In this document: positions 914-41,585 of the stretch, one piece after another
How positions within the stretch are numbered: the stretch's first letter is position 1
Layout: the number at the start of each line of letters is the position of its first letter
DNA from: Dyella lutea
GTDB taxonomy: Bacteria; Pseudomonadota; Gammaproteobacteria; Xanthomonadales; Rhodanobacteraceae
Reading direction: 5' to 3'
DNA length: 64,000 nucleotides
NCBI RefSeq assembly: GCF_024158035.1
Contig: NZ_JAMZEK010000001.1
Location: 248,001 to 312,000 of the forward strand
Program-made: the position numbers and the translations under genes
The notes under the pieces: generated by a model
Seen by the model: only the letters and a program-made list of their open reading frames with translations
Databases searched by the model: none
What the model was told of the DNA's origin: nothing

Positions 914-927
914 CTGATCTGGATCAG
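914..927 (+). promoter_or_regulatory. FNR/Dnr-type box upstream of nnrS
   Basis: CTGAT-CTGG-ATCAG is a perfect inverted repeat matching the FNR/Dnr consensus TTGAT-N4-ATCAA except for the outer base of each arm. Its centre is 63 bp before the preferred ATG at 984. Confidence 0.75.
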
Positions 928-983
928 GGTGCCGGCAACGCCCGGCGCCGAGCATGCGGCTTTCCGCCGACAGGCCCAGGCCG

Positions 984-2222
984 ATGTCCGATCTTTCCCT
1001 ACCCGCGCGACCCGCCCCCTGGTCGCCGGCGGTGCTGGCCCAGGCGCCGCACCGGCTGCTGTTCCTGGCCGGCGCCTGCACGGTGCTGACCAGCATGGCG
1101 TGGTGGGCGCTGGAACTGGGTGCGCTGCGCTTCGGCTGGACGGCCTGGCCGCAGCCGCCGGTGCCGCCGGCCTGGGGCCACGCCCTGCTGACCGCGTACG
1201 GGATGCTGCCGCTGTTCATGTTCGGCTTCCTGCTGACCGTGTTCCCGCGCTGGCTGGATCGCCCCGCGCTGCCGCGCCTGCGCTACGTGCCGGTAGCCGG
1301 CTCGGTGTTCGGCGGCTATGCGCTGGCGCACGCTGGCTTGCTGGGCAGCCTGCCGCTGCTGCGCTTCGGCGTCGCACTGATGCTGGTCGGCTACGGGCTG
1401 GCGCTGCTGCCGCTGGCCGGCGTGCTGCATGCCGCGACAGCGCGCAACGCCCACGCATGGTCGTGCCTGGCGGGGCTGGGCGTGGGAGCGCTCGGGCTGG
1501 CCGCCGGGCTGGCCGTGCTGTGCGGTGCGCCGGCGGCGTGGATGCCGCTGGCGATCCGCCTGGGCGTGTTCGGCTTCCTGCTGCCGGTGTACTTCAGCGT
1601 GTGCCACCGGATGATCCCGTTCTTCAGCGCCAACGTGGTGCCTGGCTACCGCATGGTGCGCCCGCGCTGGAGCCTGCCCGCGGCCTGGGCGCTGCTGCTC
1701 GCGCACATCGCGCTGGAAGCGGCCGGCGCCAGCGCCTGGCGCTGGCTGGCCGACTTGCCGCTGGCGCTGCTGTTCGGCTGGCACGCGCTGGCCTGGCAGC
1801 CGTGGAAGGCCCGGCGTCCCGGCCTGCTGTTCGCGCTGCACCTGGCGTTCGCCTGGCTGCCGGTGGCGATGGCGCTGTTCGCGGCACAGAGCCTGTGGCT
1901 GGCGCTGCGCGGCGAGGCGGTGCTCGGCCTGGTGCCGCTGCACGTGCTGACCATCGGCTACTTCGGCTCGATGCTGGTGGCGATGGTCACCCGCGTCACC
2001 CAGGGTCATGCCGGCCGCCTGCTGCAGATGGGCGCGGTGCCGTGGCTGTGCTTCATCTCGCTGCAGTGCGTGCTGGCGCTGCGCGTGCGCGCCGAGCTGG
2101 GCGCGGACGGCTACCGCTGGCTGGTGTTCGCGGCAGTCGGCTGGCTGCTGGCGTTCGCTCCCTGGGTGCTGCGCTCGGCCTGGATCTATCTGACCCCGCG
2201 CGCCGACGGCCGCCCGGGGTGA
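984..2222 (+). CDS. nnrS: NnrS family haem/copper membrane protein
   Basis: The product has 412 residues and is almost entirely hydrophobic, with about 12 predicted membrane segments. It has the NnrS signature region [19 protein letters not shown] followed by LLTVFPRW, and later a segment rich in conserved His and Arg around [17 protein letters not shown]. NnrS proteins are inner-membrane haem/copper proteins induced during denitrification. They protect against NO-related stress, probably by limiting iron-nitrosyl complex formation, but their chemistry is unsettled. ATG at 984 ([10 protein letters not shown]) is preferred to ATG at 954 because it removes a polar leader and gives the box-to-start spacing seen at the other genes. 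An FNR/Dnr box precedes it. Confidence 0.82.
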
Positions 2223-2271
2223 ACTAGCCGGCTGTGGCAGCTTGTCGCAGCCCAGGCGTATTCTTTTGCGA

Positions 2272-2285
2272 CTGATCTGTATCAG
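2272..2285 (+). promoter_or_regulatory. FNR/Dnr-type box upstream of nirK
   Basis: CTGAT-CTGT-ATCAG lies between nnrS and nirK, centred 65 bp before the nirK ATG. TAACCT at 2307-2312 is placed as a -10 element would be if the box is centred at -41.5. Confidence 0.78.
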
Positions 2286-2343
2286 GGGCGCCGTACGGCG
2301 CCTGCCTAACCTGTTCGTCACGGATAACGAAGGGGAAAAGATC

Positions 2344-3876
2344 ATGTCCACGCTGTTGCGCACCCTGCTGGCCACGGCCAGCGCCCTGGCGATCGCCGCC
2401 TGTTCGGGCAAGCCCGATGCCGCCACCCCCACCACCGGCGCCGCGCCACCGCAGGCGGCCGCGCAGAGCGGCATCCCCGGCGACTTCGGCCCACCGCAGG
2501 GCGCGCCGATCCACGCGGTGCTGACCAGCCCGCCGAACGTGCCGCCGCCGATCCACCGCAACTATCCGGCCAAGGTCATCGTCGACCTGGAAGTGATCGA
2601 GAAGGAGATGCCGATCTCCGAAGGCGTCACCTACACCTACTGGACCTTCGGCGGCACCGTGCCGGGCAGCTTCATCCGCGTACGCCAGGGCGACACGGTG
2701 GAGTTCCACCTGAAGAACTCGCCCGACTCCAAGATGCCGCACAACATCGACCTGCACGGCGTCACCGGCCCGGGCGGCGGCGCAGCCTCCAGCTTCACCG
2801 CGCCTGGCCACGAGTCGCAGTTCACCTTCAAGGCGCTCAACCAGGGCGTGTACGTGTATCACTGCGCCACCGCGCCGGTGGGCATGCACATCGCCAACGG
2901 CATGTACGGGCTGATCCTGGTGGAGCCGCCGGAAGGCATGCCCAAGGTCGACCACGAGTACTACGTGATGCAGGGCGACTTCTACACGGTGGGCAAGTAC
3001 CGCGAGAAGGGCCACCAGGCCTTCGACATGGACAAGGCGATCGACGAGAAGCCGACCTACGTGCTGTTCAACGGCCACGAAGGCGCGCTCACCGGCGACA
3101 AGGCGCTCACCGCCAAGGTCGGCGAGACGGTGCGGCTTTTCGTCGGCAACGGCGGTCCGAACCTGGTGTCCAGCTTCCACGTGATCGGCGAGATCTTCGA
3201 CACCGTGCGGCAGGAAGGCGGCACGGTCGAGCAGCACAACGTGCAGACCACGCTGATCCCGTCGGGCGGCGCCGCGATGGTCGAGTTCAGGACCCAGGTG
3301 CCGGGCAGCTACGTGCTGGTGGACCACTCGATCTTCCGCGCCTTCAACAAGGGCGCGCTGGGCATCCTCAAGGTGGACGGCCCGGAGAACAAGGCAATCT
3401 ACTCGGGCAAGGAGGTCGACTCGGTGTACCTCGGCGACCGCGCCGAGCCGAACCTGCACGCGGTGGCCACTGCCGCGAAGGCCAACGCCGCCGGCACGCT
3501 GAGCAAGGACGACCAGATCGCCGCCGGCAAGCAGCTGTTCACCGGCACCTGCTCGGTCTGCCACCAGGCCAACGGCGCCGGCCTGCCCAGCGTGTTCCCG
3601 CCGCTGGCCAAGTCGGACTACGTCGCGAAGCTGGCCGGCAAGGACAAGGACGCGCTGATCGCGATCCCGCTGCACGGCCTCAACGGCAAGGTCACCGTCA
3701 ACGGCGTCGAGTACGACTCGGTGATGCCGCCGATGACCCAGCTCACCGACGACGAGGTGGCCAACATCCTCACCTACGTGCTCAACAGCTGGGACAACCC
3801 CGGCGGCCAGGTGACCAAGGACGAGGTGACCAAGGTGCGCGCCACGCCGGCGCCTGCCGCGGGCGGGGAGCACTGA
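2344..3876 (+). CDS. nirK: Copper-containing nitrite reductase with fused C-terminal cytochrome c domain
   Basis: Reduces nitrite to nitric oxide in the periplasm. The 510-residue protein starts with a lipoprotein-type signal (IAAC, Cys20), so it may be membrane anchored. Two cupredoxin domains span roughly residues 60-345. The type 1 copper ligands are His133, Cys174, His182 and Met187. The type 2 copper ligands are His138, His173 and His328. Asp136 and His279 match the catalytic pair of the Alcaligenes enzyme. A cytochrome c domain follows at about 388-490, with CSVCH at 403-407 and a candidate axial Met in the VMPPM motif. This fused layout lets the tethered haem pass electrons to the type 1 copper. 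ATG at 2344 has a strong AAGGGGA ribosome-binding site; an upstream in-frame ATG at 2242 does not. First gene of a run with nirV, SCO and the next small gene. Confidence 0.95.
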
Positions 3877-3877
3877 G

Positions 3878-4660
3878 ATGCGCCGCCGGGCCATCGCGGC
3901 GGCCCTGCTGGCACTGGCCGTGGCCTGCGCCACGGCCAGCGCCGCCGAGTACGTGCCAATGCCCGGCGGGCGCTTCGCCAGCGTGCTGCCGGCCGACGGC
4001 AAGACCGCCCCGGCGCAGGTGGCGCCGTTCGCCCTGCGCACCGAACCGGTGACCAACGCCGAGTTCCTCGCCTTCGTGCGCCGCCACCCCGCGTGGCGGC
4101 GCGATCGCGTGCCGACCGTGTTCGCCGACGGCCGCTATCTCTCGCAGTGGGCCGGCCCGGACACGCTCGGTGCCGACGCGCTGCCGGCGCAGCCGGTGAC
4201 CCGGGTGAGCTGGTTCGCCGCCCAGGCCTACTGCGCGAGCGAACACGCCCGCCTGCCGAGCTGGTACGAGTGGGAGATGGCCGCCGCGGCCGATGCCACC
4301 CGCGCCGATGCGCGCAGCGACCCGGCCTGGCGCGAGCGCGTGCTGGACTGGTACAGCCGCCCGTCCGGCCACGCCTTGCCCGCCATCGGCGGCCCGCCCG
4401 ACCTGCACGGCGTGCGCGACCTCAACGGCCTGGTGTGGGAATGGGTCGACGACTTCAACGCGCTGCTGGTGGGCAGCGACAGCCGCGACCAGGACGGCGC
4501 CGACAAGCTGAAGTTCTGCGGCGCCGGCGCGATCAGCATGGAGCAGAAGGAGAACTACGCCACGCTGATGCGCATCGCCATGCTCTCCTCGCTGAAGGCC
4601 ACCGACACCACCGCCAACCTGGGCTTCCGCTGCGCGCGGCCCATCGGGGAAACGCCATGA
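3878..4660 (+). CDS. nirV: NirV-like formylglycine-generating-enzyme-fold protein
   Basis: The 260-residue protein has a signal peptide ending near ASA (about residue 23) followed by a SUMF1/FGE-type fold. Recognisable elements are the start EYVPMPGGRF, the helix EPVTNAEFLAF, VSWFAAQAYCASEHARLPS, and the end LGFRCARP. NirV proteins are encoded directly after nirK in Rhodobacter and other denitrifiers. No enzymatic activity has been shown for them, and a role in nitrite reductase maturation or electron supply is only suspected. The gene starts one base after the nirK stop and overlaps the next gene by ATGA, so it is almost certainly co-transcribed and translationally coupled. Confidence 0.85.
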   Translation: MRRRAIAAALLALAVACATASAAEYVPMPGGRFASVLPADGKTAPAQVAPFALRTEPVTNAEFLAFVRRHPAWRRDRVPTVFADGRYLSQWAGPDTLGADALPAQPVTRVSWFAAQAYCASEHARLPSWYEWEMAAAADATRADARSDPAWRERVLDWYSRPSGHALPAIGGPPDLHGVRDLNGLVWEWVDDFNALLVGSDSRDQDGADKLKFCGAGAISMEQKENYATLMRIAMLSSLKATDTTANLGFRCARPIGETP

Positions 4661-5745: not shown

Positions 5746-5759
5746 CTGATCCGGATCAG
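5746..5759 (+). promoter_or_regulatory. FNR/Dnr-type box upstream of the 100-residue Cys protein
   Basis: CTGAT-CCGG-ATCAG is a perfect palindrome centred 64 bp before the ATG at 5817, the same spacing as at nirK, fabA and norB. Confidence 0.75.
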
Positions 5760-5816
5760 CCCGGAGAACGCGCCGTCCGCCCAGCATGTCCGCCAACGTT
5801 CCCGCGGAGCGGCGAC

Positions 5817-8988: not shown

Positions 8989-9002
8989 TTGACCCGTGTC
9001 AG
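8989..9002 (+). promoter_or_regulatory. FNR/Dnr-type box upstream of fabA
   Basis: TTGAC-CCGT-GTCAG lies in the 130-bp gap before fabA, centred 62 bp before its ATG. The five-base arms are complementary except at the outermost position. Confidence 0.7.
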
Positions 9003-9057
9003 GGCGACCGCATCCGGCGCCGTCCACACTCGCCGGATACCCGCACGAGACGAGCCC

Positions 9058-9573
9058 ATGACCCGCCCCTCCGAGTTCAACCGCGACCAGCTGCTGGCCT
9101 GCGCCCGCGGCGAGCTGTTCGGCCCCGGCAACGCACGCCTGCCCGCCCCGCCGATGCTGATGTTCGACCGCATCACCCACGTCGACGACCACGGCGGCGC
9201 CTACGGCAAGGGCGTGCTGCGCGCCGAACTGGACATCCATCCGGAGCTCTGGTTCTTCGGCTGCCATTTCGCCGGCGATCCGGTGATGCCGGGCTGCCTG
9301 GGGCTGGACGCGATGTGGCAGCTGTCGGGGTTCTTCCTGCCCTGGCTGGGCGAGCCGGGACGCGGCCGCGCGCTCGGCGTGGGGCAGGTGAAGTTCAGCG
9401 GCCAGGTGCTGCCAGACGCCCGGCTGGTGCGCTACGAGATCGACATCCGCCGGGTGATGCGCGGCAGGCTCGCGCTGGTGGTGGCCGACGGCAAGACCTT
9501 CGTCGACGACCGGCTGATCTACGTCGCCAGCGACATGCGGGTGGGCCTGTTCCAGTCCACGGAGGGCTTCTGA
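9058..9573 (+). CDS. fabA: 3-hydroxydecanoyl-ACP dehydratase/isomerase
   Basis: A 171-residue protein (E. coli FabA has 172). The catalytic His70 in [20 protein letters not shown] and Asp84 fall at exactly the E. coli positions. FabA dehydrates 3-hydroxydecanoyl-ACP and isomerises it to cis-3-decenoyl-ACP, the oxygen-independent entry to unsaturated fatty acids. It overlaps fabB by TGATG. The FNR/Dnr box upstream suggests induction when oxygen-dependent desaturation is not possible. Its place between denitrification genes, rather than in a fatty acid locus, is unusual. Confidence 0.95.
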
Positions 9574-10781
9574 TGCGCCGTGTCGTCGTCACCGGATTCG
9601 GCATCACCTCGTGCCTGGGCAGCGTCGCCGATACCGTGTCGCGCGCCCTGCAGGAGCTGACCAGCGGCATCCGCGCGATGCCCGAGTACGTCGCCCGCGG
9701 CCTGCGCAGCCAGGTGGCCGGCGTGCCGCAGATCGAGCTGGAGACGGCGATCGACCGCAAGCTGCTGCGCTTCATGGGCGGCGCGGCCGCGTACGCCTAC
9801 GTGGCGATGCGCACGGCGATCGGCGATGCCGGACTGTCCGAGGAACAGGTGCGCCACCCGCGCACCGGCGTGGTCGCCGGCTCCGGCGGCGGCTCGGCGC
9901 ACTGGCAGATCGAGACCGCCGACCTGCTGCGCGGCAAGGGCGTGCGCCGGGTCGGTCCGTACATGGTGCCGCGCACGATGTGCTCCACCGTATCCGCCTC
10001 GCTGGCGACCGCGTTCGGCATCCTCGGCCTGAGCTATTCGATCGCCGCCGCCTGCGCCACCTCGGCGCACTGCATCGGCGCGGCGGCGGACCTGATCCGG
10101 CACGGCGCGCAGGACGTGGTGTTCGCCGGCGGCGGCGAGGAGGAGCACTGGGGCATGACCGCGCAGTTCGACGCGATGGGCGCGCTCGCCAGCCGCCGCA
10201 ACGACACCCCCGCCAGCGCCTCGCGTCCGTACGACGCCGGCCGCGACGGCTTCGTCATCGCCAGCGGCGGCGGCATGCTGGTGCTGGAGGACTACGAACA
10301 CGCCCGGGCGCGCGGGGCGCGCATCCATGCCGAACTGGTCGGCTACGGCGTCACCTCCGACGGCGCCGACATGGTCGCGCCGAGCGGCGAAGGCGCCGTG
10401 CGCTGCATGAAGATGGCGCTGGCCGGAGTCGCCGGTCCGGTCGACTACCTCAACACCCACGGCACCGCCACGCCGCTGGGCGACCTGACCGAACTGCACG
10501 CCGTGCGCGAGGTGTTCGGTGCACACGTGCCGCCGCTGTCCTCGACCAAGGCGCTGACCGGGCACTCGCTCGGCGCCGCCAGCGTGCACGAGGCGATCTA
10601 CAGCCTGCTGATGATGCGCGACGGGTTCATGGCCGGCTCGGCTCATATCGATGCACTCGACCCGCAGGCCGGGGGATTCCCCATCCTTCGCGAGAGCCAG
10701 CCGGCGCGGCTGTCCACGGTGATATCCAACAGCTTCGGTTTTGGCGGCACCAACGCCAGCCTGGTGTTCGCCCGGGTGTAG
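9573..10781 (+). CDS. fabB: 3-oxoacyl-ACP synthase I
   Basis: A 402-residue beta-ketoacyl synthase of the FabB type (E. coli 406). The catalytic triad is Cys161 in [10 protein letters not shown], His296 in [11 protein letters not shown] and His331 in [10 protein letters not shown]. FabB elongates cis-3-decenoyl-ACP made by FabA and is required for unsaturated fatty acids. Start and fabA stop overlap, so the pair forms one transcription unit. It ends with the Gly-rich [13 protein letters not shown] motif typical of the thiolase fold. It is convergent with the sirB2-like gene. Confidence 0.95.
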
Positions 10782-11285: not shown

Positions 11286-13568
11286 TCAGGCACGCTCGCG
11301 TGCCGCCTGCGGCAACACCGCACCCTTCGGGCTGCGCCGGGGCGCCAGCCACAGCGAGGCGACGAACACCGAGGTGAGCAGGGCGCCGACCGCGAACAGG
11401 CTGTCGCCGGGCACGCGCATCCACACCAGCAGGTGTACCAGCGGCTGGTTCATGAAGTGCTCGGAGCGGGCGAACCAGTAGCCATGGTCCAGCGCCGCGC
11501 TGAGCTGCAGCACGCCCAGCGGCAGCAGGGTCAGCAGCGCCATCAGCGACAGGCCGATGTTGAGCGTCCAGAACGCGCCCTTCAGCCAGCCTTCGCTCCA
11601 CTCGGCCGCCGGCTTGATGCCGCGCAGGCAGAACAGCATCAGGCCCATGCCGAGCATGCCGTACACGCCCATCAGCGCGGTGTGGCCGTGCAGCGGGGTG
11701 AGGTTGAGGCCCTGCATGTAGTACAGCGCGATCGGCGTGTTGACCAGGAAACCGAACAGGCCCGCACCGACCAGATTCCAGAAGCTCACCGCCACGAAGA
11801 ACATGATCGGCCAGCGGTAGCGTGCCATCCACGGGGCGGCGTGCTGCTTGCGCCAGTTGTCGTAGGCCTCCAGCCCGATCAGCGCCAGCGGCACTACTTC
11901 CAGCGCCGAGAAGCTGGCGCCCAGCGCGATCACCGCCGTGGTGGTGCCGGTGAAGTACAGGTGATGCAAGGTGCCCAGCACGCCGCCGGCCATGAACACG
12001 ATGGTGGCGAACAGCACGCTGGTGGAGGCGCTGGCCGCACGCAGCAGGCCGAGCTTGACGAACAGGTAGGCGATCACCGCGGTGGCGAACACTTCGAAGA
12101 AGCCTTCCACCCACAGGTGCACCACCCACCAGCGCCAGTACTCGACCATCGCGATGTGGGTGTGCTCGCCCCACATCAGGCCGGCACCGTAGAGCAGGCC
12201 GATCGCGATGGTGGACAGGAACAACAGCCCCACGATGTGCGAGGTCTCGTCGTGACGCTTGATCGCCGGCATCAGCGCGCGGCCGACCAGGAACAGCCAC
12301 AGCATCAGCCCGATGAACAGGAAGATCTGCCAGAAGCGGCCCAGGTCGGTGTACTCCCAACCCTGGTGGCCGAACCAGAAGTTGTACTTCAGGCCCAGCT
12401 TGTCCATCACCGCGAACCACTGGCCGGCGAACGAGCCGACCACGATCAGCAGCAGGCACACCCACAGGAAGTTCACGCCCAGGCGCTGGAACTTCGGTTC
12501 CTTGCCGCCGATCAGCGGCGCCATGTACAGGCCGGTGGCCAGCCACGCGGTGGCGATCCACAGCACCGCCAGCTCGGTGTGCCAGGTGCGGGTGAGGCTG
12601 TACGGCAGCACGTTGGCCAGCGCAAAGCCGTAGGCCTGCTGGCCCTCCACCTGGAAGTGCGCGGTGGTGGCGCCGAGCAGGATCTGCACCAGGAACAGGC
12701 CCATCACCGTCCAGAAGTACTTCGCCGTCGCCTTCATCGAGGGCGTCGGCTTGAACTCGGCCAGCGGGTCGCGTGCCGGCACTGCAGCCGGTGCCTCCTT
12801 GTGGCTCTGCACGGCGTGATACCAGCCGAGCAGGCCGATGCCGAGGATCAGGAACAGCACGCTGAAGACCGACCAGATGAACGCGGTGCCGCTGGGCCGG
12901 TTGCCCACCAGCGGGTCGTACGGCCAGTTCTGCGTGTAGCTGACGCTGTGCCCGGGACGCTCGGCGGCGGCGGCCCAGCTGGTCCACCAGAAGAACGCGG
13001 TGACCGCGCGGCGGTGTTCCATCTCCGCGATGGTGTTCTCGCGCATGGCGTAGGTGACGCGCAGCGCGTGGGTGGCCGGGTCGTTGCTGAACAGACTCTC
13101 GTAGTGGCGTGCCACCACCTCCATCGCCTGCGCCCGCAGCGGCGAGACGGTGATGCTGCCGGTGGCCGCGTTCCAGGTGTTGTGCCGCTCCTCGGCCTGC
13201 ACGCGGGCCTTCAGCGCGGCCTGCCGCTCGACATCGAGCGCGGCGAACGAGGGCGCGCCCTCGTCGCGGGCCAGCAGCTCGAGCATGGCGTCGGCCTCGC
13301 GATGCAGCCAGTCGGCGCTCCAGTCCGGCGCCACCAGCGCGCCGTGGCCCCAGATCGAGCCGAGCTGCTGGCCGCCGATGCTCTGCCAGACCTCCCGGCC
13401 CAGTTCGATGTCGGCGCGGGTGTACAGCGTGGCGCCTTGGGTGGTGACCACCGCGTCGGGCAGCGGCGGTGCCTGCTGGTGCACCTCCTTGCCCACCCAC
13501 AGCAGCACCGAGAAGGAGGCCAGCAGCAATACCGCCAGCCCCAGCCAGAGTTTTCGGGTCGTCGTCAT
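11286..13568 (-). CDS. norB: Quinol-dependent nitric oxide reductase (single subunit qNor)
   Basis: A 760-residue protein that reduces two NO to N2O in the inner membrane with quinol as donor. The N-terminal 250 residues form the extra TM helix plus periplasmic domain of qNor (WVGKEVHQQAPPLP through GREVWQSIGGQQLGSIWGHG). Twelve helices homologous to haem-copper oxidase subunit I follow. His ligands are visible in RTWHTELAVLWIA, in HLWVEGFFEVFATA (including a Glu expected near the FeB site), in LHHLYFTGT and in PLHGHTALMGVYGMLG. The start at 13568 (MTTTRKLWLG) is preferred to one nine codons upstream because GGAG lies just before it. An FNR/Dnr box is centred 61 bp upstream. Confidence 0.95.
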   Translation of the reverse strand: MTTTRKLWLGLAVLLLASFSVLLWVGKEVHQQAPPLPDAVVTTQGATLYTRADIELGREVWQSIGGQQLGSIWGHGALVAPDWSADWLHREADAMLELLARDEGAPSFAALDVERQAALKARVQAEERHNTWNAATGSITVSPLRAQAMEVVARHYESLFSNDPATHALRVTYAMRENTIAEMEHRRAVTAFFWWTSWAAAAERPGHSVSYTQNWPYDPLVGNRPSGTAFIWSVFSVLFLILGIGLLGWYHAVQSHKEAPAAVPARDPLAEFKPTPSMKATAKYFWTVMGLFLVQILLGATTAHFQVEGQQAYGFALANVLPYSLTRTWHTELAVLWIATAWLATGLYMAPLIGGKEPKFQRLGVNFLWVCLLLIVVGSFAGQWFAVMDKLGLKYNFWFGHQGWEYTDLGRFWQIFLFIGLMLWLFLVGRALMPAIKRHDETSHIVGLLFLSTIAIGLLYGAGLMWGEHTHIAMVEYWRWWVVHLWVEGFFEVFATAVIAYLFVKLGLLRAASASTSVLFATIVFMAGGVLGTLHHLYFTGTTTAVIALGASFSALEVVPLALIGLEAYDNWRKQHAAPWMARYRWPIMFFVAVSFWNLVGAGLFGFLVNTPIALYYMQGLNLTPLHGHTALMGVYGMLGMGLMLFCLRGIKPAAEWSEGWLKGAFWTLNIGLSLMALLTLLPLGVLQLSAALDHGYWFARSEHFMNQPLVHLLVWMRVPGDSLFAVGALLTSVFVASLWLAPRRSPKGAVLPQAARERA

Positions 13569-13622
13569 GGCACGTCTCCGTAAGGACGTGCGCATCGTCG
13601 GCGGCGCGGGGGGCGGCTGCCC

Positions 13623-13636
13623 CTGACCTATATCAG
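13623..13636 (-). promoter_or_regulatory. FNR/Dnr-type box upstream of norB
   Basis: CTGAC-CTAT-ATCAG (plus-strand reading) lies in the gap between the TyrA-like gene and norB, centred 61 bp before the norB start codon. Confidence 0.75.
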
Positions 13637-18518: not shown

Positions 18519-18733
18519 CGCGGCGACGCCGCGGTGCCTGCCGGGGCCGGATGCGCATGGCCATGCGAAGGCACCCCGAACACCGCGTGCGGCGCATCCA
18601 CCGGCACGTCGGCGTGGCGCGCGCCCATCGCGATGATCCACACGCAGCCGGCGAGCGAAGCGACGAACACCACCGCGCCCAGCCACAGCACCGGCTGGCG
18701 GTACCAGCGACTGCGCGGGTCAGCGCCCGGCAT
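18515..18733 (-). CDS. Short CcoH/FixH-like membrane protein
   Basis: A 72-residue protein with one predicted TM (PVLWLGAVVFVASLAGCVWI) preceded by SRWYRQ, which resembles the PWYRQ-TM start of CcoH/FixH. The large periplasmic domain of ordinary CcoH (about 160-200 residues) is missing and is replaced by a short His-rich tail (VPSHGHAHPAPAG). It lies exactly where ccoH lies in other clusters, overlapping ccoP and ccoI. I read it as a reduced CcoH, possibly keeping only the TM contact with the oxidase. Confidence 0.6.
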   Translation of the reverse strand: MPGADPRSRWYRQPVLWLGAVVFVASLAGCVWIIAMGARHADVPVDAPHAVFGVPSHGHAHPAPAGTAASPR

Positions 18734-19634
18734 CGCCGATGCCCGGGTGGGCCAGGTGATAGACGTAGGACGCCAGCACGCGCATCTGGTCGGCGCTCAG
18801 GCGCTTGTCCCAGGCCGGCATCGCGCCCTGGCGCCCGCCGCGGATGGTCTGCTCGATGTCGGCGACGCTGCCGCCGTGCAGCCAGATGTGGTCGGTGAGA
18901 TTGGGTGCGCCCAGCGCCTGGTTGCCCTTCCCCTCCGGCCCGTGGCACGCCGCGCAGGTGGCGAACAGCGGCCTGGCCGCGGCCGCCGCGGCCGCGTCGT
19001 GCGGCGATCCGGACAGGCTCAGCACGTACTGCGCCAGGTGCTTGACGTTCTGCTCGCCCAGGCTCGGTCCCCAGGGCGGCATCACGCCGGCGCGGCCGTG
19101 CTCGATGCTGGTGAGGATGTCCTTGCCGCTGCCGCCGTAGAGCCAGTCGTCGTCGGTGAGGTTGGGCGCGCCCAGCGGCACGTTGCCGTGCGCGGCCGGA
19201 CCGTGGCAGGCGGCGCAGTTGTCCATGAACAGGCGATGGCCCATCTGGATTGCCGCCGGATCGCCGGCGAGCTGCTCGATCGGGTACTGGCGGAAGCGCG
19301 CCAGCAGATCGTCCAGCTTGGCGTCGTTGGCGGCCACGTCCTTCGCCAGCTCGCCGTGCGCGGTCCAGTGCAGCGTGCCCCTGTGGTTGCCGAAGCCGGG
19401 GTACCGCACCAGGTAGGTGAAACCCGCCACGAACATCGCCGCGGAGAACACCACCCACCACAGCGGCAGCCGGCGCACGCCCTCGCGCAGCACGCCGTGC
19501 GCCCACACGTGGCCGCTGGTGCCGTCGGGCTGGGTCGGGATCTTCGCCCGCGGCGCCCACAGGAACAGGAAGAACGTGATGCCCAGGTTGAGCACGATCA
19601 GGAACATCACCCACATCGACCAGCCGGCGCTCAT
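18720..19634 (-). CDS. ccoP: cbb3-type cytochrome c oxidase subunit III (dihaem)
   Basis: A 304-residue protein with two N-terminal membrane segments (about 7-26 and 57-77) and two cytochrome c domains carrying CAACH at 140-144 and 227-231. Distal Met ligands are plausible in GVMPPWG and GAMPAWD. The LWWVVFSAAMF-type second helix and the YPGFGNHRGTLHWT loop are typical of CcoP. It passes electrons from soluble or membrane cytochromes to CcoO/CcoN. The gene overlaps both ccoQ and the CcoH-like gene. Confidence 0.95.
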   Translation of the reverse strand: MSAGWSMWVMFLIVLNLGITFFLFLWAPRAKIPTQPDGTSGHVWAHGVLREGVRRLPLWWVVFSAAMFVAGFTYLVRYPGFGNHRGTLHWTAHGELAKDVAANDAKLDDLLARFRQYPIEQLAGDPAAIQMGHRLFMDNCAACHGPAAHGNVPLGAPNLTDDDWLYGGSGKDILTSIEHGRAGVMPPWGPSLGEQNVKHLAQYVLSLSGSPHDAAAAAAARPLFATCAACHGPEGKGNQALGAPNLTDHIWLHGGSVADIEQTIRGGRQGAMPAWDKRLSADQMRVLASYVYHLAHPGIGDAGR

Positions 19635-19816
19635 CGCTGTTCTCCCGCGTCGTCATCGGCCGCCGCATCGACCGCGTCTTCCATCGGCAAGCCCGCCATG
19701 CGCTGGAACACCTCGCGGTGCCGCTTGCGCCAGGCCCAGACCCAGATGCCCACGAAGGTGAGCATCAGCACCACCGTCACCGCGCCGGCGAGGTGGCCCC
19801 ACGCTTCGTGGCTCAT
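19631..19816 (-). CDS. ccoQ: cbb3 oxidase small subunit CcoQ
   Basis: A 61-residue protein with one TM ([20 protein letters not shown]) followed by a basic stretch RKRHREVFQ and an acidic tail, the standard CcoQ layout. CcoQ stabilises the interaction of CcoP with the CcoNO core. It is translationally coupled to ccoO (overlap of four bases) and ccoP. Confidence 0.88.
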
Positions 19817-20463
19817 GGCGCACCTCCCGCGCTGGCCGGCGCCGCGGGCGGCTGCGGCTCGTTCTTGATGCCCAGGCCCTGCAGGTAGGCGATCAGCGCA
19901 TCCATCTCGGTCTTGCCGGCCACTGCGGCGGGCGCCGCGGCGATGTCCGCGTCGGTGTACGGATCGCCCAGCTCGCGCAGCACGCGCATGCGCGCCTGGA
20001 TGTCGGACGGGTCCAGCGTCGCCTTGGCCAGCCACGGGAAGCCCGGCATGTTGGAGGCAGGGACCAGCGCGCGCGGGTTCATCAGGTGCATGCGCTGCCA
20101 CTGGTCGGAGTACTTGCCGCCGACCCGCGCCAGGTCCGGACCGGTGCGCTTGGAGCCCCACTGGAACGGCCGGTCGTAGACCGACTCCTCCGCGGTGGAG
20201 TAGTGGCCGTAGCGCTGGGTCTCGGCACGCAGCGCGCGGATCATCTGCGAGTGGCACAGATAGCAGCCCTCGCGCACGTAGATGTCGCGCCCGGCCAGCC
20301 GCAGCGGGTCGTAGGGCTTCACCCCCGGCGGCGCCTTCACCGCGTGCGCCTCCATGAACAGCGGGGTGATCTCGGCCAGCCCGCCGATCGACACCATGAT
20401 CGCGATGAGGATGCCGAGCAGGCCGGCGTGCTTCTCGATCGCTTCGAAATGTTTGTAGGCCAT
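19813..20463 (-). CDS. ccoO: cbb3-type cytochrome c oxidase subunit II (monohaem)
   Basis: A 216-residue protein with an N-terminal anchor (about residues 13-33) and one cytochrome c domain with CYLCH at 67-71, followed by SQMIR as in all CcoO. The axial Met lies in the MPGFPWL region ([14 protein letters not shown]). It starts 10 bp after the end of ccoN. Confidence 0.95.
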
Positions 20464-20473
20464 GGTCGCCTCC

Positions 20474-21940
20474 TCAACCCGCGGCCGGCAGCGGCGCCGG
20501 CACCTGGTGCGGTACCGGCTCGGGGATCGGCACCGGGATCGGCTTGATCAGCCGCGCCCGCGCGTCGTCGGCGGTGTGCCACAGGTTCCACGCCATCACC
20601 CACATGCCGGACAGGATCAGCAGGCCGCCGCCCCAGCGGATCAGGTACATCGGCTTGATCGCTATCAGGCTGGCGATGAACGGATAGGTCAGCGCGCCGT
20701 CCGGCTGGGTGGCACGCCACATCACGCCCTCGGTGACACCGGCGGTCCACATCGAACCGACGTACATCAGCGTGCCCATCATGTGCAGCCAGAAATGCAG
20801 CTCCATGCCCCGGCGCGAATGCATCGCCGGCTTGCCCAGCGCACGCGGCGCCATCGCGTAGAGCGAGCCGATGGTGATCATCGCCACCCAGCCGAGCGAG
20901 CCGGAGTGCACGTGGGCGATGGTCCAGTCGGTGTAGTGCGAGAGCGAGTTGACGGTCTTGATCGCCATCATCGAGCCCTCGAAGGTGGCCGCCGCGTAGA
21001 ACACCAGCGACATCACCATGAACTTGGCCGCCGGGTCGGTGCGCAGCTTCTCCCACGAGCCGTTGAAGGTGAGCAGGCCGTTGGCCGCCGAGCCCCAGCT
21101 GGGCATCAGCAGGATCAGCGAGAACGCCATGCCCACCGACTGCACCCAGTCCGGCAGCGCGGTGTACATCAGGTGGTGCGAGCCGGCCCACATGTACACC
21201 GAGATCAGTGCCCAGAAGTTCACGATGGAGAAGCGGTAGCTCCACAGCGGCTGCTGCGCCTGGCGCGGCACGAAGTAGTACATCATCCCGAGGAAGCCGG
21301 CGGTGAGGAAGAACGCCACCGCGTTGTGGCCGTACCACCACTCCACCATCGCATCCACCACGCCGGAGTAGATCGGGTAGGACTTCCACAGCGACACCGG
21401 CACGGCCAGGTTGTTGACGATGTGCAGCAGCCCGACGGCGATGATGAACGCGCCGTAGTACCAGTTCGCCACGTAGATGTGTTGGATGCGCCGGCGCGCC
21501 AGGCTGGCAAAGAACACCGTGCCGAAGCTGACCCAGACGATCGCGATCAGGATGTCGATGAACCACTCCGGCTCGGCGTATTCCTTGCTCTGGGTGATCC
21601 CCAGCGGCATGGTCACCATCGCCAGCACGCAGATCAGCTGCCAGCCCCAGAAGGTGAATTCGGCCAGCCGGCCCAGCGCGAGGCGGGCATGTCCGGTGCG
21701 CTGCACCACGTAGTAGCAGGTGCCCATCAGCGCGGAGCCACCGAAGGCAAAAATCACGCCGAAGGTGTGGTCCGGGCGGATCCGGCTGAAGGTCATCCAG
21801 GGGATGTCGAAGTTCAGTGCCGGCCACATCAGCTCGGCCGCGGCGTAGACGCCGAAGGACATGCCGATGATGCCCCAGACGGCCGCGGCCAGCAGGAACT
21901 GCCGGACCACCTTGTCGTTGTAGTACTCGGTATTCGGCAT
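20474..21940 (-). CDS. ccoN: cbb3-type cytochrome c oxidase subunit I
   Basis: A 488-residue catalytic subunit with 12 membrane helices. Haem and CuB His ligands are visible in [46 protein letters not shown] and [14 protein letters not shown]; the [19 protein letters not shown] segment is typical of CcoN. The enzyme reduces O2 with high affinity and pumps protons. The start at 21940 ([12 protein letters not shown]) is chosen because GAGGG precedes it. The order ccoN-O-Q-P-H-I-S is complete, but no ccoG is in the window. An FNR/Dnr box is centred 60 bp upstream. Confidence 0.96.
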
Positions 21941-21993
21941 GGGATGCCCTCGGGAAAGTGGCGAAAGTGTCATGGCAGGTTTCGGCCGGATCG

Positions 21994-22007
21994 CTGATCT
22001 GGATCAG
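21994..22007 (-). promoter_or_regulatory. FNR/Dnr-type box upstream of ccoN
   Basis: CTGAT-CTGG-ATCAG is identical to the nnrS box. It is centred 60 bp before the ccoN start. Confidence 0.78.
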
Positions 22008-22133: not shown

Positions 22134-23198
22134 TCAGTGCCGGCAGGCGAGCGCCCTTGGATTCATCACCCTGCGCCACAGCGGCGGCGCCAGCGCCAGC
22201 ACGAACATCGTGGCGTAGCCGGCCGGCAGCTGCGGGCTGTCGTCGTGGTGGTGCAGTGCCTGGTAGCGGCGGCGCGCCACGGCATGGTGATCGGAATGGC
22301 GCTGCAGGTTGAACAGCAGCCAGTTGGTGTAGCGCTGCGGCGCGTTCCACGAGTGGTGATGGGTGACCCGCTCGTAGCGGCCGGGCGCGATCTCGCGCCG
22401 CTGCAGCCCGTAGTGCTCGACGTAGTTGATCACTTCCAGCGTGGCCGCCGCGATCAGGCCCTGCAGCAGGAAGAAGCCCAGCGCACGGAAGCCGCCCGCC
22501 ACGGCGAACGCCGCCATGAACGCCAGCCACAGCGCGTACCAGCGCACCATTTCGTTGCGGGCACTCCACAGCGAGTGCCCGCGCGCGCGCAGCCGCTGCG
22601 CCTCCAGTCGCCAGGCGTTGCGCACGTTGCGCCATAGCGCGCGGGGCACGAAGGCATACACCGATTCGCCGAGCCGGGCGCTGGAGGAATCCTCCGGCGT
22701 GGCCACGTGCAGGTGGTGCCCGCGCACGTGCTCCACCTTGAAGCCCGGGTAGCCCACGCTGGTCAGCAGCACGCCGCCGAGCAGCGGCTCCCAGCGCGTG
22801 GACTTGTGGATCAGCTCGTGCGCCGGGTTGATCGCCAGCACGCCGCCGATGACCCCGGTGGAGACCAGCCAGCCGAGTTGGCCGACCGGTCCGAACGGCT
22901 GCTGCGTGAACTGCCACGCGCACCAGCCCAGCAGGCCCAGCCACACCGGCAGCACCAGCGCGGTGAGCGTGCGGAAATAGCGGCTGTGCTCCAGCCGATG
23001 CCCCTCGTCGACGTCCGCCGGGTTATCCGTGTCCAGGCCGCAGGCCGCGTCGATCCAGGGCACCACGCCGAAGATGAAGGCGATCGGAAACCACGCGGCG
23101 AGATCCAGCGGCAGGCCCAGGCGCGCAAGCAACAAGCCGCCCGCCGGCAGCGCGGCGGTGGAGAAGGCCAGCAGAAACCCGAGGTCACGGGTGCGCAT
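22134..23198 (-). CDS. AlkB-type alkane 1-monooxygenase family protein
   Basis: A 354-residue integral membrane di-iron hydroxylase. The His clusters are HELIH, EHVRGHHLHVATPED, NYVEHYGLQRRE and LQRHSDHHA, the last being the AlkB signature. Six hydrophobic helices surround them. AlkB proteins hydroxylate the terminal carbon of alkanes or related chains using O2 and rubredoxin. No rubredoxin gene is adjacent, so substrate and electron donor are open. It shares its strand with the upstream hydrolase gene (43-bp gap) and has no FNR-type box. Confidence 0.85.
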   Translation of the reverse strand: MRTRDLGFLLAFSTAALPAGGLLLARLGLPLDLAAWFPIAFIFGVVPWIDAACGLDTDNPADVDEGHRLEHSRYFRTLTALVLPVWLGLLGWCAWQFTQQPFGPVGQLGWLVSTGVIGGVLAINPAHELIHKSTRWEPLLGGVLLTSVGYPGFKVEHVRGHHLHVATPEDSSSARLGESVYAFVPRALWRNVRNAWRLEAQRLRARGHSLWSARNEMVRWYALWLAFMAAFAVAGGFRALGFFLLQGLIAAATLEVINYVEHYGLQRREIAPGRYERVTHHHSWNAPQRYTNWLLFNLQRHSDHHAVARRRYQALHHHDDSPQLPAGYATMFVLALAPPLWRRVMNPRALACRH

Positions 23199-27002: not shown

Positions 27003-30000
27003 ATGGACACCCTGCTCGCCGACTTCCACCCCGCCGTCGCGGCCTGGTTCCGCGGCCGTTTCGCCGCGCCCACCGCGGCGCAGGCGGCGGCGTGGCCGGC
27101 GATCCGCCGGGGCGAACACACCCTGGTCGCCGCGCCCACCGGCTCGGGCAAGACGCTGACTGCCTTCCTTGCCGCGATCGACGCGCTGGTGCGCGAGGGC
27201 GTGGCGCACGGCGGCGCGCTGCCGGACGAGACGCGGGTGGTCTACGTGTCGCCGCTGAAGGCGCTGTCCAACGACATCCAGGTCAACCTGGAGTCGCCGC
27301 TGGAGGGCATCCGTAACGAGCTGAAAGCGCTAGGCCTGCCCGACGTGGCGATCCGCACCGCGGTGCGCACCGGCGACACGCCGCAGGCCGCGCGCCACCT
27401 GATGCGCAAGCACCCGCCGCACATCCTGGTCACCACACCGGAGTCGCTCTACATCCTGCTCGGCTCGGCCTCCGGCCGCGAGGCGCTGAAGCACGTGCGC
27501 GAGGTGATCGTGGACGAGATCCACGCGCTGGCCGACAGCAAGCGCGGCGCGCACCTGGCGCTGAGCCTGGAGCGGCTGGAAGCGCTGTGCCAGCGGCCGC
27601 TGCTGCGCATCGGCCTGTCCGCCACGCAGAAGCCGATCGAGGCGGTGGCGCGCTTCCTGGTCGGCGAGGGCGAACGCGCCGCGCTGGCGCCGCTGGCCGA
27701 CGACACCGCGCCGAACGCTGCAGCTGACCCCGCCTGCACCATCGTCGATATCGGCCACAGCCGCCCGCGCGACCTCGCCATCGAGGTGCCGCCGGTGCCG
27801 CTGGAAGCGGTGATGTCCAACGACACCTGGGCGCTGGTCTACGACCGCCTCGCCACGCTGGCCCAGGCGCACCGCACCACGCTGATCTTCGTCAACACGC
27901 GGCGGATGGCCGAGCGCGCCGCGCGGCACCTGTCCGAACGGCTGGGCAAGGAACTCGTCGCCGCGCACCACGGCAGCCTGTCGCGCGAGCAGCGGCTGGA
28001 CGCCGAGCAGCGGCTCAAGCGCGGCGAGCTGCGCGCGCTGGTCGCCACCGCCTCGCTGGAGCTGGGCATCGACATCGGCGACGTTGACCTGGTCTGCCAG
28101 CTCGGCTCGCCGCGCTCGATCGCCGCCTTCCTGCAGCGCGCCGGACGCAGCGGCCATGCGGTCGACGGCACGCCGAAGGCGCGGCTGTTCGCCACCTCGC
28201 GCGACGACCTGGTGGAATGCGCGGCCCTGCTCGACTGCGTGCGTCGCGGCGAACTGGACACCCTCAGGATGCCGGCACAGCCGCTGGACGTGCTGGCGCA
28301 GCAGATCGTTGCCGAGGTTGCCTGCAGCGAATGGGACGAGGACGCGCTGTACGCGCTGGTGCGTCGCGCGCACCCGTACCGCGCGCTGGCACGCAAGGAC
28401 TTCGACGCCATCGTGCGCATGCTCGCCGACGGCTTCACCACCCGCCGCGGCGCGCGTGCCGCCTACCTGCACCGCGACGCCGTGCACCGGCAGCTGCGCG
28501 GCCGGCGCGGTGCGCGGCTCACCGCGGTCACCTCCGGCGGCACCATCCCCGATACCGCCGACTACCAGGTGGTGCTGGAACCGCAGGCGACCATCGTCGG
28601 CACCGTCAACGAGGATTTCGCCATCGAAAGCTTCGCCGGCGACGTGTTCCAGCTCGGCAACACCAGCTACCGCATCCAGCGCGTGGAGCCGGGCAAGCTG
28701 CGGGTGGAAGACGCCAGGGGCGTGCCGCCGAACATCCCGTTCTGGCTGGGCGAGGCGCCCGGGCGCAGCGACGAGCTGTCCTTCGGCGTGTCGCGGCTGC
28801 GCGGGGAGATCGGCACCCAGCTCGCCGCCGGCTGCGTGGATGCGGCCAAGGCGTGGCTGCGCGACACCCTCGGCCTGAACGAATCCGCCGCCCAGCAGCT
28901 GGCCGACTACCTTGCCCGCGCCCGCGCCGCGCTGGGCGAACTGCCCACGCAGTCCACCATCGTCATCGAGCGCTTCTTCGACGAATCCGGCGGCACCCAG
29001 CTGGTGATCCACACGCCCTACGGCAGCCGGCTCAACCGCGCTTGGGGGCTGGCGCTGCGCAAGCGCTTCTGCCGCCAGTTCAACTTCGAGCTGCAGGCCG
29101 CGGCCACCGAGGATGCGATCGTGCTGTCGCTGTCCACCAGCCACAGCTTTCCGCTGATCGAGGTGGCGCACTACCTGCATTCGTCCAGCGCCGAGCACGT
29201 GCTGACCCAGGCCTTGCTGGACGCGCCGCTGTTCCCCACGCGCATGCGCTGGGCGGCGGTCACCGCGCTGGCGCTGCCGCGCTTCGCCGGCGGCAAGAAG
29301 GTGCCGCCGCAGCTGCAGCGCATGAAGAGCGAAGACCTGCTCGCCACCGTGTTCCCCGACCAGGTCGCCTGCCTGGAGAACATTGTCGGCGAGCGCGAGG
29401 TGCCCGATCACCCGCTGGTCAACCAGACCCTGCACGACTGCCTGCGCGAGGCGATGGACACCGACGGCCTGCTCGCCCTGCTGCACGGCATGGAGGACGG
29501 TCGCATCACCGTGATCGCGCGCGACCTGGCCGCGCCCAGCCCGCTGGCCAGCGAAGTGCTGACCGCCGCGCCCTACGCCTTCCTCGACGACGCGCCGCTG
29601 GAGGAACGCCGCACCCAGGCGGTGCAGGCGCGCCGCTGGGGTGACGTGGAGGACGCCGACGACCTCGGCCGGCTCGATCCCGACGCCATCGCCGCGGTGC
29701 GCGAGGAAGCCTGGCCGCAGGCGCGCGACGCCGACGAGATGCACGACGCGCTGACCGTGCTCGGCGGCATCACCGACGCGGAAGTGGCCGCCAACACCGG
29801 CTGGGACGCGCACCTGCGCGCGCTGGCCAAGGCACATCGCGCCACCCGGCTCAGCCTCGCCCCGGCCACTGCCGTGTGGGTCGCCGCCGAACGACTGCCA
29901 CTGTGGCAGGCGGTGCATCCGCAGGCCACGCGGCAACCGGCCATCGACGCGCCCGCCGAATACGCCGCGCCATCCTGGACACCCGAAGACGCCCTGCGCG

Positions 30001-32573: not shown

Positions 32574-32576
32574 TCG

Positions 32577-39550: not shown

Positions 39551-40212
39551 GCGGACTCTTGGGTAGTGCACAGCGCCGCAAGCAGCGCGTCGACCGGTTG
39601 AAAACGGAGCTCCAGCTCGGCCAGCAACACGCTTTGCATGTCGCGGCGGAAGGTGTCGAGCCAGTGGGTCTGCCCGGCGCTGCGCAGGGATTCGAAGCGC
39701 CGCTCCAGCAGCGTCGGCACCTTGGCCAGCAGGCTGTGTTCGCGAGGGCTGAGCGTCACTTCCATCACCGCGTCGACTTCGGCCAGCCGCGCGGCATCGG
39801 TCGAGGCCTGCGCCAGGGCATCGCGCAGCTTGCCGCGCAGACGGCCGGTGGTGGCCTGCATCGCACGCTGGTGGGTGAGACAGCTCTGGCGCATCGCCGC
39901 GTAGTCGGCCTCGTCCGCCGTCGCGGTGCCTGCGGCGAGCAACGGGTCATTCCGGATAGCGGAATCGAGCACCTCGCGGGCCCGCGCGCACCCGGCCGCC
40001 AGCTCGTCCGACGGCGTCACGGCACCCCCGCACACGACCGGACACGCATCCAGTGCGGACGAGAGCGCCAGCGCATGTTTCCAGTCCAGCCACTGGCCAA
40101 GCCGATCAGGCAGCGACGCGCCCGGTGCGGCCACGTCCACCTCTGCCAGGCGCGCCAGCAGACGGATGAAGGTAGGTCCGCGGACCGTTGGGCGGAGGGC
40201 TGCTTGCGCCAT
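39547..40212 (-). CDS. DUF3348 family protein, first gene of the motor-like operon
   Basis: A 221-residue soluble protein with the DUF3348 start RGPTFIRLLARLAEVDV, then LPDRLGQWLDWKHALALSSA. The rest is helical, and the end includes LAKVPTLLERRFESLR and QSVLLAELELRFQPVDALLA. No catalytic motif is seen. It overlaps the DUF802-type gene by four bases and heads the four-gene operon. Confidence 0.8.
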   Translation of the reverse strand: MAQAALRPTVRGPTFIRLLARLAEVDVAAPGASLPDRLGQWLDWKHALALSSALDACPVVCGGAVTPSDELAAGCARAREVLDSAIRNDPLLAAGTATADEADYAAMRQSCLTHQRAMQATTGRLRGKLRDALAQASTDAARLAEVDAVMEVTLSPREHSLLAKVPTLLERRFESLRSAGQTHWLDTFRRDMQSVLLAELELRFQPVDALLAALCTTQESA

Positions 40213-40341
40213 GTTTCGCCGGGCAAAACCGGCAGTTTACCGCGCCAGCGGGGCTGCGGCCCGCCCGGTCGTCGCAGCGAGCGCGCGGTCGCTCACGCTT
40301 CGGGAGCTGCGCCCCTCCGTCAGCTCGCCCGACCGGCCCGG

Positions 40342-41517
40342 TCAGGCCACGCTGGCGCGCCGCGTGAGATGGGCGGCTACCAGCCGGCGGAACAGCGGCA
40401 CGCGCCCGGCAGCGCCCAGCAGGGCACCCCGCAGGAAGCACGCGGGCGGACGATCGTCGGTGTACAGCGAGGCGATCAGCCCGGTGGCGAGATAGAGCGG
40501 TGCCGTGGCGCGGCGGTGCGCCTGTTCGTAGGCCGCCAGCACATGCGGGCTGCCGATGTCCCGCCCGCTCTGCACGGCGGCACGCAGGTGGGCGGCCAGC
40601 GTCTCCGCACTCTGCAGGCCGAAATTGAAGCCGTGCGCGGTGACCGGGTGCATGCCGACCGCGGCATCGCCGACCAGCGCACAGCGCGGCGCCACGAAGC
40701 GCTGTGCATAGGTGCCGACCAGCGGATAGACATGGCGCTCGCCGAGCAGGCGCATGCTGCCGAGGCGATGGTCGAAGCGCTCCTGCATGGCCCGGGCGAA
40801 ATCCTCCGGCGGCAGGTCCTGCATCGCCTGGGCGAGCTGGTGCGGCAAGGTCAGCACCACCGAGGATTGCCCCTCCCACAGCGGCAGCAGGGCCAGCGTC
40901 TGGCCGTAGCCGAACCACTCCCAGGCTTCCTGCCGGTGCGGCTGCTCGTGCGCCATGCGGCACACCAGCATGCTGCGGCCGAAGTCGCGCATGCGCGCAC
41001 CGATGCCGAGCAGCCGGCGCATGGCCGAGAAGCGGCTGTCCGCCGCCACCGCCAACCGCGCCAGCACGGACAGATCGCCGGCGCAGTGCAGGCGCACGCC
41101 ACTGCCTTCGATGGCGATGTCCTGCACGTCGGCATGGTTTACCACCTGCACCGAGGCGCGGCTGTTGGCCGCCTCGAACGCGGCGCGGCGGATCTGGGCG
41201 TTGCTCACCAGGTGTCCGAGCAGGCCGTGGTCCGGCGCGGCGATCTCCATCGGACGGGCACCGCGGCCGTCCATCACCCGCGCCGCGCGCAGCGGATGGA
41301 TGTAGGCCGGATCGATCCGCGACCACACGTCCAGCCGCTCCAGTCGTTCGCGGGAGGCCTTGGTCAGCGCGATCTCGCGGCCGTCGTCAACCGGCTCGGC
41401 CAGCGCCAGCAGCGACTGCCGCTCCAGCACCGCCACCTCGAGCCCCGCATCGGCCAGCGCGCTGGCCAGGCACAAGCCGGCCGGTCCGCCCCCCACCACC
41501 GCTACGTCCACACGCAT
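40342..41517 (-). CDS. ubiM: UbiM-type FAD-dependent ubiquinone hydroxylase
   Basis: A 391-residue flavoprotein monooxygenase of the UbiH/UbiF/UbiM group. It has the FAD dinucleotide motif VVGGGPAGLCLASALADAGL (residues 7-26), and in the second FAD motif ALVGDAAVGMHPVTAHGFNF followed by GLQSAETLA. The HPVTAHGFNFGL variant, rather than HPxAGQGxNLGL of UbiH/UbiI, points to UbiM, which hydroxylates the quinone ring at C5 or more positions. It stands alone, and a clean FNR/Dnr-type box lies 61 bp upstream, which is surprising for an O2-using enzyme. Confidence 0.75.
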   Translation of the reverse strand: MRVDVAVVGGGPAGLCLASALADAGLEVAVLERQSLLALAEPVDDGREIALTKASRERLERLDVWSRIDPAYIHPLRAARVMDGRGARPMEIAAPDHGLLGHLVSNAQIRRAAFEAANSRASVQVVNHADVQDIAIEGSGVRLHCAGDLSVLARLAVAADSRFSAMRRLLGIGARMRDFGRSMLVCRMAHEQPHRQEAWEWFGYGQTLALLPLWEGQSSVVLTLPHQLAQAMQDLPPEDFARAMQERFDHRLGSMRLLGERHVYPLVGTYAQRFVAPRCALVGDAAVGMHPVTAHGFNFGLQSAETLAAHLRAAVQSGRDIGSPHVLAAYEQAHRRATAPLYLATGLIASLYTDDRPPACFLRGALLGAAGRVPLFRRLVAAHLTRRASVA

Positions 41518-41571
41518 CGCGCTTCTCCGTCCGGAAAGACGGGAGGCTAGGACTGGCGGGGGACGGCCGCG

Positions 41572-41585
41572 CTGACGCGGATCAA
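41572..41585 (-). promoter_or_regulatory. FNR/Dnr-type box upstream of ubiM
   Basis: CTGAC-GCGG-ATCAA (plus-strand reading; TTGAT-CCGC-GTCAG on the gene strand) is centred 61 bp before the ubiM ATG. TAGCCT at 41549-41544 on the gene strand is correctly placed for a -10 element. Confidence 0.65.

Follow-up and report, generated by a model that had tools for sequence, protein, structure and literature searches.

Predicted class II FNR-type promoters in Dyella lutea, with ubiM and fabA among their targets

The window, as we call the whole stretch of DNA analysed here, spans 64,000 nucleotides of the genome of Dyella lutea (C1:248001-312000; the genome has 4.40 Mb in 8 contigs). Seven of its transcription units, headed by nnrS, nirK, a gene for a cysteine-bearing protein of 100 residues (the Cys protein), fabA, norB, ccoN and ubiM, are preceded by the FNR-type palindrome YTGAYN4RTCAR. 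A preliminary description of this DNA had read these boxes as parts of class II FNR-type promoters, a reading now supported by where a -10-like element lies and by relatives that conserve box, spacing and -10 alike. We predict from the sequence that the seven boxes are very probably the operators of such promoters, under low-oxygen control.

The promoter mechanism itself is textbook knowledge: what is new, within the literature searched, is the presence of ubiM and fabA among the targets. The ubiM promoter, which several families of the order share, and the fabA promoter, which is linked to denitrifiers, are the parts worth following: boxed ubiM and fabA in many relatives suggest how such bacteria rebuild their membranes and electron carriers as oxygen runs out.

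Boxes, spacing and -10 elements

The window has a guanine-plus-cytosine (GC) content of 70%. It contains nine matches to YTGAYN4RTCAR, against a mean of 0.37 and a maximum of 3 in 100 dinucleotide shuffles, and this density exceeds that of the genome: its 96 matches in 4.40 Mb would predict 1.4 in 64 kb, where 9 are found (Poisson P 1.6e-5). The reversed pattern, used as a control, has 25 sites in the genome. Seven of the nine matches are the promoter boxes named in the preliminary description, four on the + strand and three on the - strand, and the remaining two lie within open frames. The distances from box centre to ATG given there, all between 60 and 65 bp, are reproduced exactly (Table 1). 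They had been used to place the boxes at -41.5: the constant spacing is real, but a distance to the ATG is in itself no proof of that position, and it is the -10 element that supplies it.

A box centred at -41.5 demands the motif ANNNT, with A at -11 and T at -7. Five of the seven promoters (nnrS, Cys protein, fabA, ccoN, ubiM) have this motif exactly in place; in nirK it stands one base closer, and in norB one base further. At any other offset at most one promoter of the seven contains ANNNT, and none of 20,000 shuffles reached five.

What can be read from the DNA is the box, how far it lies from the -10-like element and from the start codon, and that relatives conserve these features. Orthologues of the seven genes were located by tblastn in up to 20 kb around nirK, a gene present in 69 of 147 genomes of the family (E <= 2e-127, hand count), in 20 loci (L050-L069) of 19 relatives. 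This yields 56 target regions upstream of the seven genes, 7 of the window's own and 49 from relatives, and 70 regions upstream of other genes served as controls. A perfect box at 59-66 bp is found in 38 of the 56 targets and in none of the controls; if one mismatch and distances of 57-79 bp are allowed, the counts become 51 of 56 and 1 of 70. Among the 51 boxed regions, 41 boxes are perfect and 10 have one mismatch, and the -10 is present within one base in every one (51/51). Gene by gene, boxes precede ccoN in 5/5 regions, the Cys protein gene in 8/9, fabA in 10/10, nirK in 17/20, nnrS in 7/8, norB in 3/3 (all the norB relatives belong to the window's own genus) and ubiM in 1/1 (its own only). 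In three relatives of nirK a longer leader puts the box at 76-78 bp, and each of them keeps its -10 at the expected place: the distance from box to ATG is therefore a by-product of promoter geometry and a short leader.

When the 47 distinct promoters are pooled, conservation outside the box is strongest at -11 (A in 66%) and -7 (T in 64%), with -9 and -8 beside them. At the predicted +1, A reaches 40% versus a background of 17%, and a purine-rich stretch precedes the start codon. In a control in which the half-site was shuffled 300 times, 283 shuffles scored 0, 7 scored 4, 7 scored 11 and 3 scored 38; these last three recreate the same motif, with its two Y positions swapped.

ubiM and fabA as targets

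A scan of named genomes yields 80 ubiM loci, 78 of them with enough upstream DNA. In 30 of these 78, a perfect box lies 49-93 bp before the start of the match, while about 0.1 would be expected from the same loci, and the -10 accompanies 27 of the 30 boxes on the ubiM strand versus 1 of 30 on the other strand. Within the order, UbiM is present in 59 of 200 genomes. Fifty order loci were scored, namely the best-scoring 30 and 20 more, the window's own excluded, a sample that may overlap in species with the named genomes: 39 have a perfect box and 2 a box with one mismatch, the perfect boxes being 6 of 12 in family f10. At one locus (L234) the perfect box is at 77 bp, and another (L265), scored as having none, had only 78 bp of upstream DNA. 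Apart from that of L234, 38 perfect boxes of the order were put to the -10 test and 33 passed; the five failing ones, all of family f9 (L230-L233, L236), have TYTAAT at the same place and fail only at -11, which is not A. Among the loci L133-L177, those of Pseudomonas often have, 65-71 bp before ubiM, conserved imperfect boxes with one mismatch, such as CTGATCCACGGCAA; these are perhaps weak ANR sites.

The genome of the window, rated 100% complete, has no match to the U32 proteins (PF01136, UbiU/UbiV), and no box was found within 350 bp upstream of the match for its UbiH (L242) or for its UbiH/F-like gene (L243). We also considered UbiM and UbiUV as mutually exclusive alternatives, an idea that is unsupported: 59 of the 200 order genomes have UbiM and 68 have a U32 protein, many having both. 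A conserved FNR-type promoter before ubiM, with none before the UbiH or UbiH/F-like genes of the same genome, gives a concrete answer that can be tested.

The gene fabA occurs in 70 of the 147 family genomes. Thirty-four of its loci were examined, some from the same genomes as the nirK loci: 24 have a perfect box (one at 90 bp), another 5 have a box at 59-63 bp with a single mismatch, and the last 5 are without a box. Outside the family, perfect boxes are found in 2/2 loci of family f3 (one at 75 bp), 1/2 of f4, 1/15 of f2 and 0/1 of f8. Family-wide, fabA is accessory and tends to accompany nirK: it is present in 53 of the 69 genomes that have nirK versus 17 of the 78 that do not (Fisher P 1.5e-11), and the association persists when stratified by genus (Mantel-Haenszel, P 8.6e-4, odds ratio about 7), on the understanding that both tests ignore relatedness except for the genus stratification and that the nirK set was compiled by hand at E <= 2e-127. 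FabAB makes unsaturated fatty acids without O2 (PMC3462791). In this one family, the fabA box ties denitrifying life to whether a desaturase or FabAB is used.

The regulator and the rival readings

The gene at 142-903, just before nnrS, encodes a protein with the cysteine pattern CX2CX5C, a fourth cysteine, and residues that align with E209, S212 and R213 in the recognition helix of solved FNR, where these have a described role (PMC4505428). Its best match in the PDB is FNR (4.7e-48), while DNR is reached at 1.1e-8. It scores 192 bits against the cut-off of 228 of the curated NCBIfam profile for Fnr (NF008365), and therefore we call it FNR-like rather than a certified Fnr. The preliminary description had also offered Dnr as the type of regulator; this has to be given up, the protein having FNR's four cluster cysteines and being far closer to FNR than to DNR. 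The genome encodes four Crp/Fnr proteins, and we think it likely, judging by these residues, that the [4Fe-4S]-type protein at 142-903 is the low-oxygen activator of the seven promoters. One of the other three, the FNR-like protein at C3:512586, which is without the cluster cysteines, adjoins an open reading frame (ORF) resembling a response regulator.

In the proposed mechanism, a dimeric activator of the FNR family would bind YTGAYN4RTCAR centred at -41.5 at low oxygen, and would recruit RNA polymerase to the weak -10; binding, oxygen control and the site of transcription start are what we infer. As O2 falls, the regulon would then run the respiration of nitrite and NO through nirK, norB and nnrS, and respiration on traces of O2 through ccoNOP. 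It would also rebuild O2-dependent biosynthesis, with fabAB providing unsaturated fatty acids and hemN providing haem without O2, and with ubiM supplying an additional hydroxylase for quinones when O2 is low. The regulator gene may itself belong to a hemN-fnr operon with its own box, hence possible self-activation.

Several observations weigh against this picture. The bare motif is common inside genes: 51 of the 76 genome sites examined, out of 96, were flagged as coding by a heuristic based on reading frame and third-position GC (GC3) that mistook 4 of the 7 promoter boxes for coding sequence as well; the 20 sites left out are C5:173827 and C6:76227 (both CTGAY..RTCAA) and 18 sites of the form TTGAY..RTCAA. 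The only match among the controls, before a globin-like gene in L056, is a perfect box at 69 bp that also has a -10, and it may be a true site. No perfect box was found at 48 of the 78 named ubiM loci, or, in family f2, at 14 of the 15 fabA loci, though one of these has a box with one mismatch. Two other FNR-like proteins of the genome, C3:731673 and C3:512586, share the same recognition residues (ExxSR). Finally, UbiM is described as O2-dependent (PMC6747719), and one would not expect to find it under an anaerobic activator, unless it acts at low, not zero, O2.

The coding matches bear on two questions. As 51 of the 76 sites look coding, the consensus alone does not suffice to identify promoters, and we rejected a scan with the bare motif as a means of finding the regulon; box, -10 and distance to the start together do better. 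The preliminary description had asked whether the motif is as frequent inside genes across the genome: the window is indeed denser than the genome, and the motif inside genes is nevertheless common. The practical rule for GC-rich genomes is to accept a box as an FNR site when it comes with a -10; the box alone is not enough. The same abundance, 96 occurrences in the genome with most of the 76 examined in apparent coding sequence, is what could be said for the seven boxes having arisen by chance, helped by codon usage and GC content, with their equal distances a coincidence. Conservation at a fixed position in the targets and not in the controls, and the aligned -10, already contradict this explanation, to which we give practically no credit. 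It is also very improbable that the sites are bound by the CRP-like protein C5:171526, the fourth Crp/Fnr-family protein of the genome, which we take to be Clp: its recognition region reads SREMVGR, not ExxSR, and CRP half-sites are TGTGA with an N6 spacer, different from the seven boxes.

A closer rival keeps the class II FNR-type promoters and changes the protein: the main activator would be C3:731673 or C3:512586, perhaps responding to NO as DNR does, with the window's fnr in a minor or overlapping role. Both proteins keep ExxSR, and for each the best PDB match is FNR. In P. putida, three FNRs that differ in O2 sensitivity are all able to bind one FNR box (PMC4505428), and NO-responsive DNR often controls denitrification genes (PMC1274295). 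However, the window's fnr adjoins hemN, nnrS and nirK, a relative of it is found in 9 of the 20 nirK loci, and neither of the other proteins resembles DNR as closely as FNR. We hold this substitution to be rather unlikely.

There remains the role of UbiM, for which the simplest reading, we infer, is that it serves low, not zero, oxygen, as cbb3 does. One could imagine instead an anaerobic standby, in which UbiM would do nothing without O2 but be at hand when O2 returns; UbiM being described as O2-dependent and FNR being most active without O2, this is a possibility, compatible with the other readings, that we entertain with reserve. However, the same regulon holds the cbb3 oxidase, which uses O2 and works at low O2. 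A broader conjecture, put forward tentatively, gives UbiM the place in ubiquinone hydroxylation that cbb3 has among terminal oxidases, that of the low-oxygen isozyme. FNR control would then explain why UbiM is retained beside UbiH/UbiI-type enzymes in part of the Lysobacterales; a higher affinity for O2, or another oxidant, would let a denitrifier without UbiUV make ubiquinone at nanomolar O2; and fabAB would belong to the same FNR-switched set, acquired or kept with nirK for membranes made without desaturase.

The wider regulon and its relation to known systems

The seven units had been described as a local regulon. All seven are boxed, yet the term is too narrow: hemN, whose box lies 1.34 kb to the left of the window (hemN and its box fall in the span from C1:246646 to window position 142), has a -10 and a GTG at 66 bp, and a second boxed ccoN is found on another contig (C2:2780, with -10, GTG at 66 bp). 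A gene for a YihG-type acyltransferase also has box and -10 (C2:577742, ATG at 60 bp), and ccmA has a box without -10 (C3:96397, ATG at 62 bp). If both a -10 and a start codon 50-94 bp away are demanded, 24 oriented combinations remain in the 76 sites, of which seven are the boxes of the preliminary description; hemN, the second ccoN and the acyltransferase were chosen from the other 17 by plausible function, and the rest may include chance matches. The stop codon of hemN is at window positions 108-110, 31 bp before the start of fnr. Since it is this close, and hemN has its own box and -10, a self-activating hemN-fnr operon is plausible on the present sequence.

Table 1. Features of the window, and the two other FNR-like proteins of the genome. 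Positions are those of the window unless a contig is given; distances run from box centre to ATG.
Feature	Position	Strand	Remark
fnr, FNR-like regulator, 253 aa	142..903	+	PF13545/PF00027; start 142 set from relatives
FNR-type box of nnrS	914..927	+	63 bp from ATG 984; kept in relatives
-10-like GAGCAT of nnrS	950..955	+	
nnrS	984..2222	+	PF05940
FNR-type box of nirK	2272..2285	+	65 bp from ATG 2344
-10-like TAACCT of nirK	2307..2312	+	one base closer than in most
nirK, copper nitrite reductase with C-terminal cytochrome-c-like part	2344..3876	+	TIGR02376; ccoP-type match at C-terminus
FGE-sulfatase-like gene after nirK	3878..4660	+	PF03781
FNR-type box of Cys protein gene	5746..5759	+	64 bp from ATG 5817
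-10-like CAGCAT of Cys protein gene	5782..5787	+	
Cys protein, 100 aa	5817..6119	+	conserved N-terminus like WQCIGCG...CIGVCRDRK, then two predicted helices
FNR-type box of fabA	8989..9002	+	62 bp from ATG 9058
-10-like CACACT of fabA	9025..9030	+	
fabA	9058..9573	+	PF07977
fabB-like frame overlapping fabA stop	9573..10781	+	name presumed
norB, NO reductase with fused cytochrome-c-like domain	11286..13568	-	PF22085, PF00115
-10-like GACGAT of norB	13594..13599	-	one base further than in most
FNR-type box of norB	13623..13636	-	61 bp from ATG 13568
ccoP 18720-19634, ccoO 19813-20463, ccoN 20474-21940	18720..21940	-	PF14715, PF02433, TIGR00780
Box match	20655..20668		inside ccoN coding sequence; probably chance
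-10-like GACACT of ccoN	21966..21971	-	
FNR-type box of ccoN	21994..22007	-	60 bp from ATG 21940
Fatty-acid desaturase gene	22134..23198		profile match
Box match	27882..27895		inside 1499-aa ORF of + strand; probably chance
ubiM, ubiquinone hydroxylase described as O2-dependent	40342..41517	-	NF006593, 522 bits vs cut-off 420
-10-like TAGCCT of ubiM	41544..41549	-	
FNR-type box of ubiM	41572..41585	-	61 bp from ATG 41517; kept in relatives
Second Cys-bearing FNR	C3:731673		best PDB match FNR
Cys-less FNR-like protein (L016)	C3:512586		best PDB match FNR

Profile searches bear out the functions first assigned to nnrS, nirK, fabA, norB, ccoN and ubiM (Table 1). We presume that the gene after nirK is nirV-like and that norB is of the quinol type, and the name fabB-like is our assumption. 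The Cys protein has no match in Pfam or NCBIfam, and its model, with a predicted local distance difference test (pLDDT) score of 73, has no match in the PDB at E <= 0.001. Orthologues of 94-111 residues in eight relatives (L050, L051, L053, L054, L056-L058, L061) have an invariant CxxC-x8-CxxxC N-terminus, so that the four N-terminal cysteines are kept in all 9 sequences compared; the boxes in 8 of the 9 upstream regions make it a predicted conserved member of the low-oxygen response. A second NirK-like gene of the same genome (C2:956649-957545), 49% identical to the first, lies about 600 bp from a further match to the box. Among the named relatives seen, Dyella ginsengisoli comes nearest, with a UbiM that is 93% identical, records very near the window being possibly left out.

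In the literature searched, with subscription papers and regulon databases outside the search, we found no report of FNR-type control of ubiM or of fabA as an FNR-type target at the class II position, and no paper on the FNR regulon of Lysobacterales was among the matches listed. Neither FNR nor 'regulat' occurs in the text searched of PMC5069965, nor FNR in that of PMC6747719; PMC11707229 treats FNR for ubiTUV, and PMC10470549 uses ubiM as a control.

Compared with known systems, the seven promoters resemble the class II FNR promoters of E. coli (FF-41.5) in having the box at -41.5, a weak -10 and a [4Fe-4S] FNR-like regulator; they differ in that the half-site often begins with C, not T, and that the targets include ubiM and fabA. 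In Sphingopyxis granuli, which has two fnr genes, Fnr boxes lie at -41.5, -42.5 and -40.5 before ccoN, hemN2 and ubiT (PMC7713065). The boxes at about -41.5 before ccoN and hemN-type genes are common to both organisms; however, S. granuli has its box on ubiT, of the O2-independent route, whereas the genome studied here is without a U32 protein and has its box on ubiM. The DNR regulons of Pseudomonas and betaproteobacteria likewise have an FNR-like box before nirK and norB, and before nnrS in P. stutzeri (PMC1274295); in contrast, the regulator of the window has cluster cysteines, and each of the three FNR-like proteins compared resembles FNR more than DNR. For fabAB, a fabA fusion is activated in E. 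coli that expresses Anr of P. aeruginosa, but in P. aeruginosa itself deletion of anr has an effect of about 25%, judged minor and probably indirect (PMC3462791), while here a class II box is conserved in the family. Finally, FNR control of ubiTUV across Pseudomonadota also places an FNR box before quinone genes (PMC11707229, PMC10470549): there it concerns O2-independent hydroxylases, and here the box stands before the O2-dependent UbiM.

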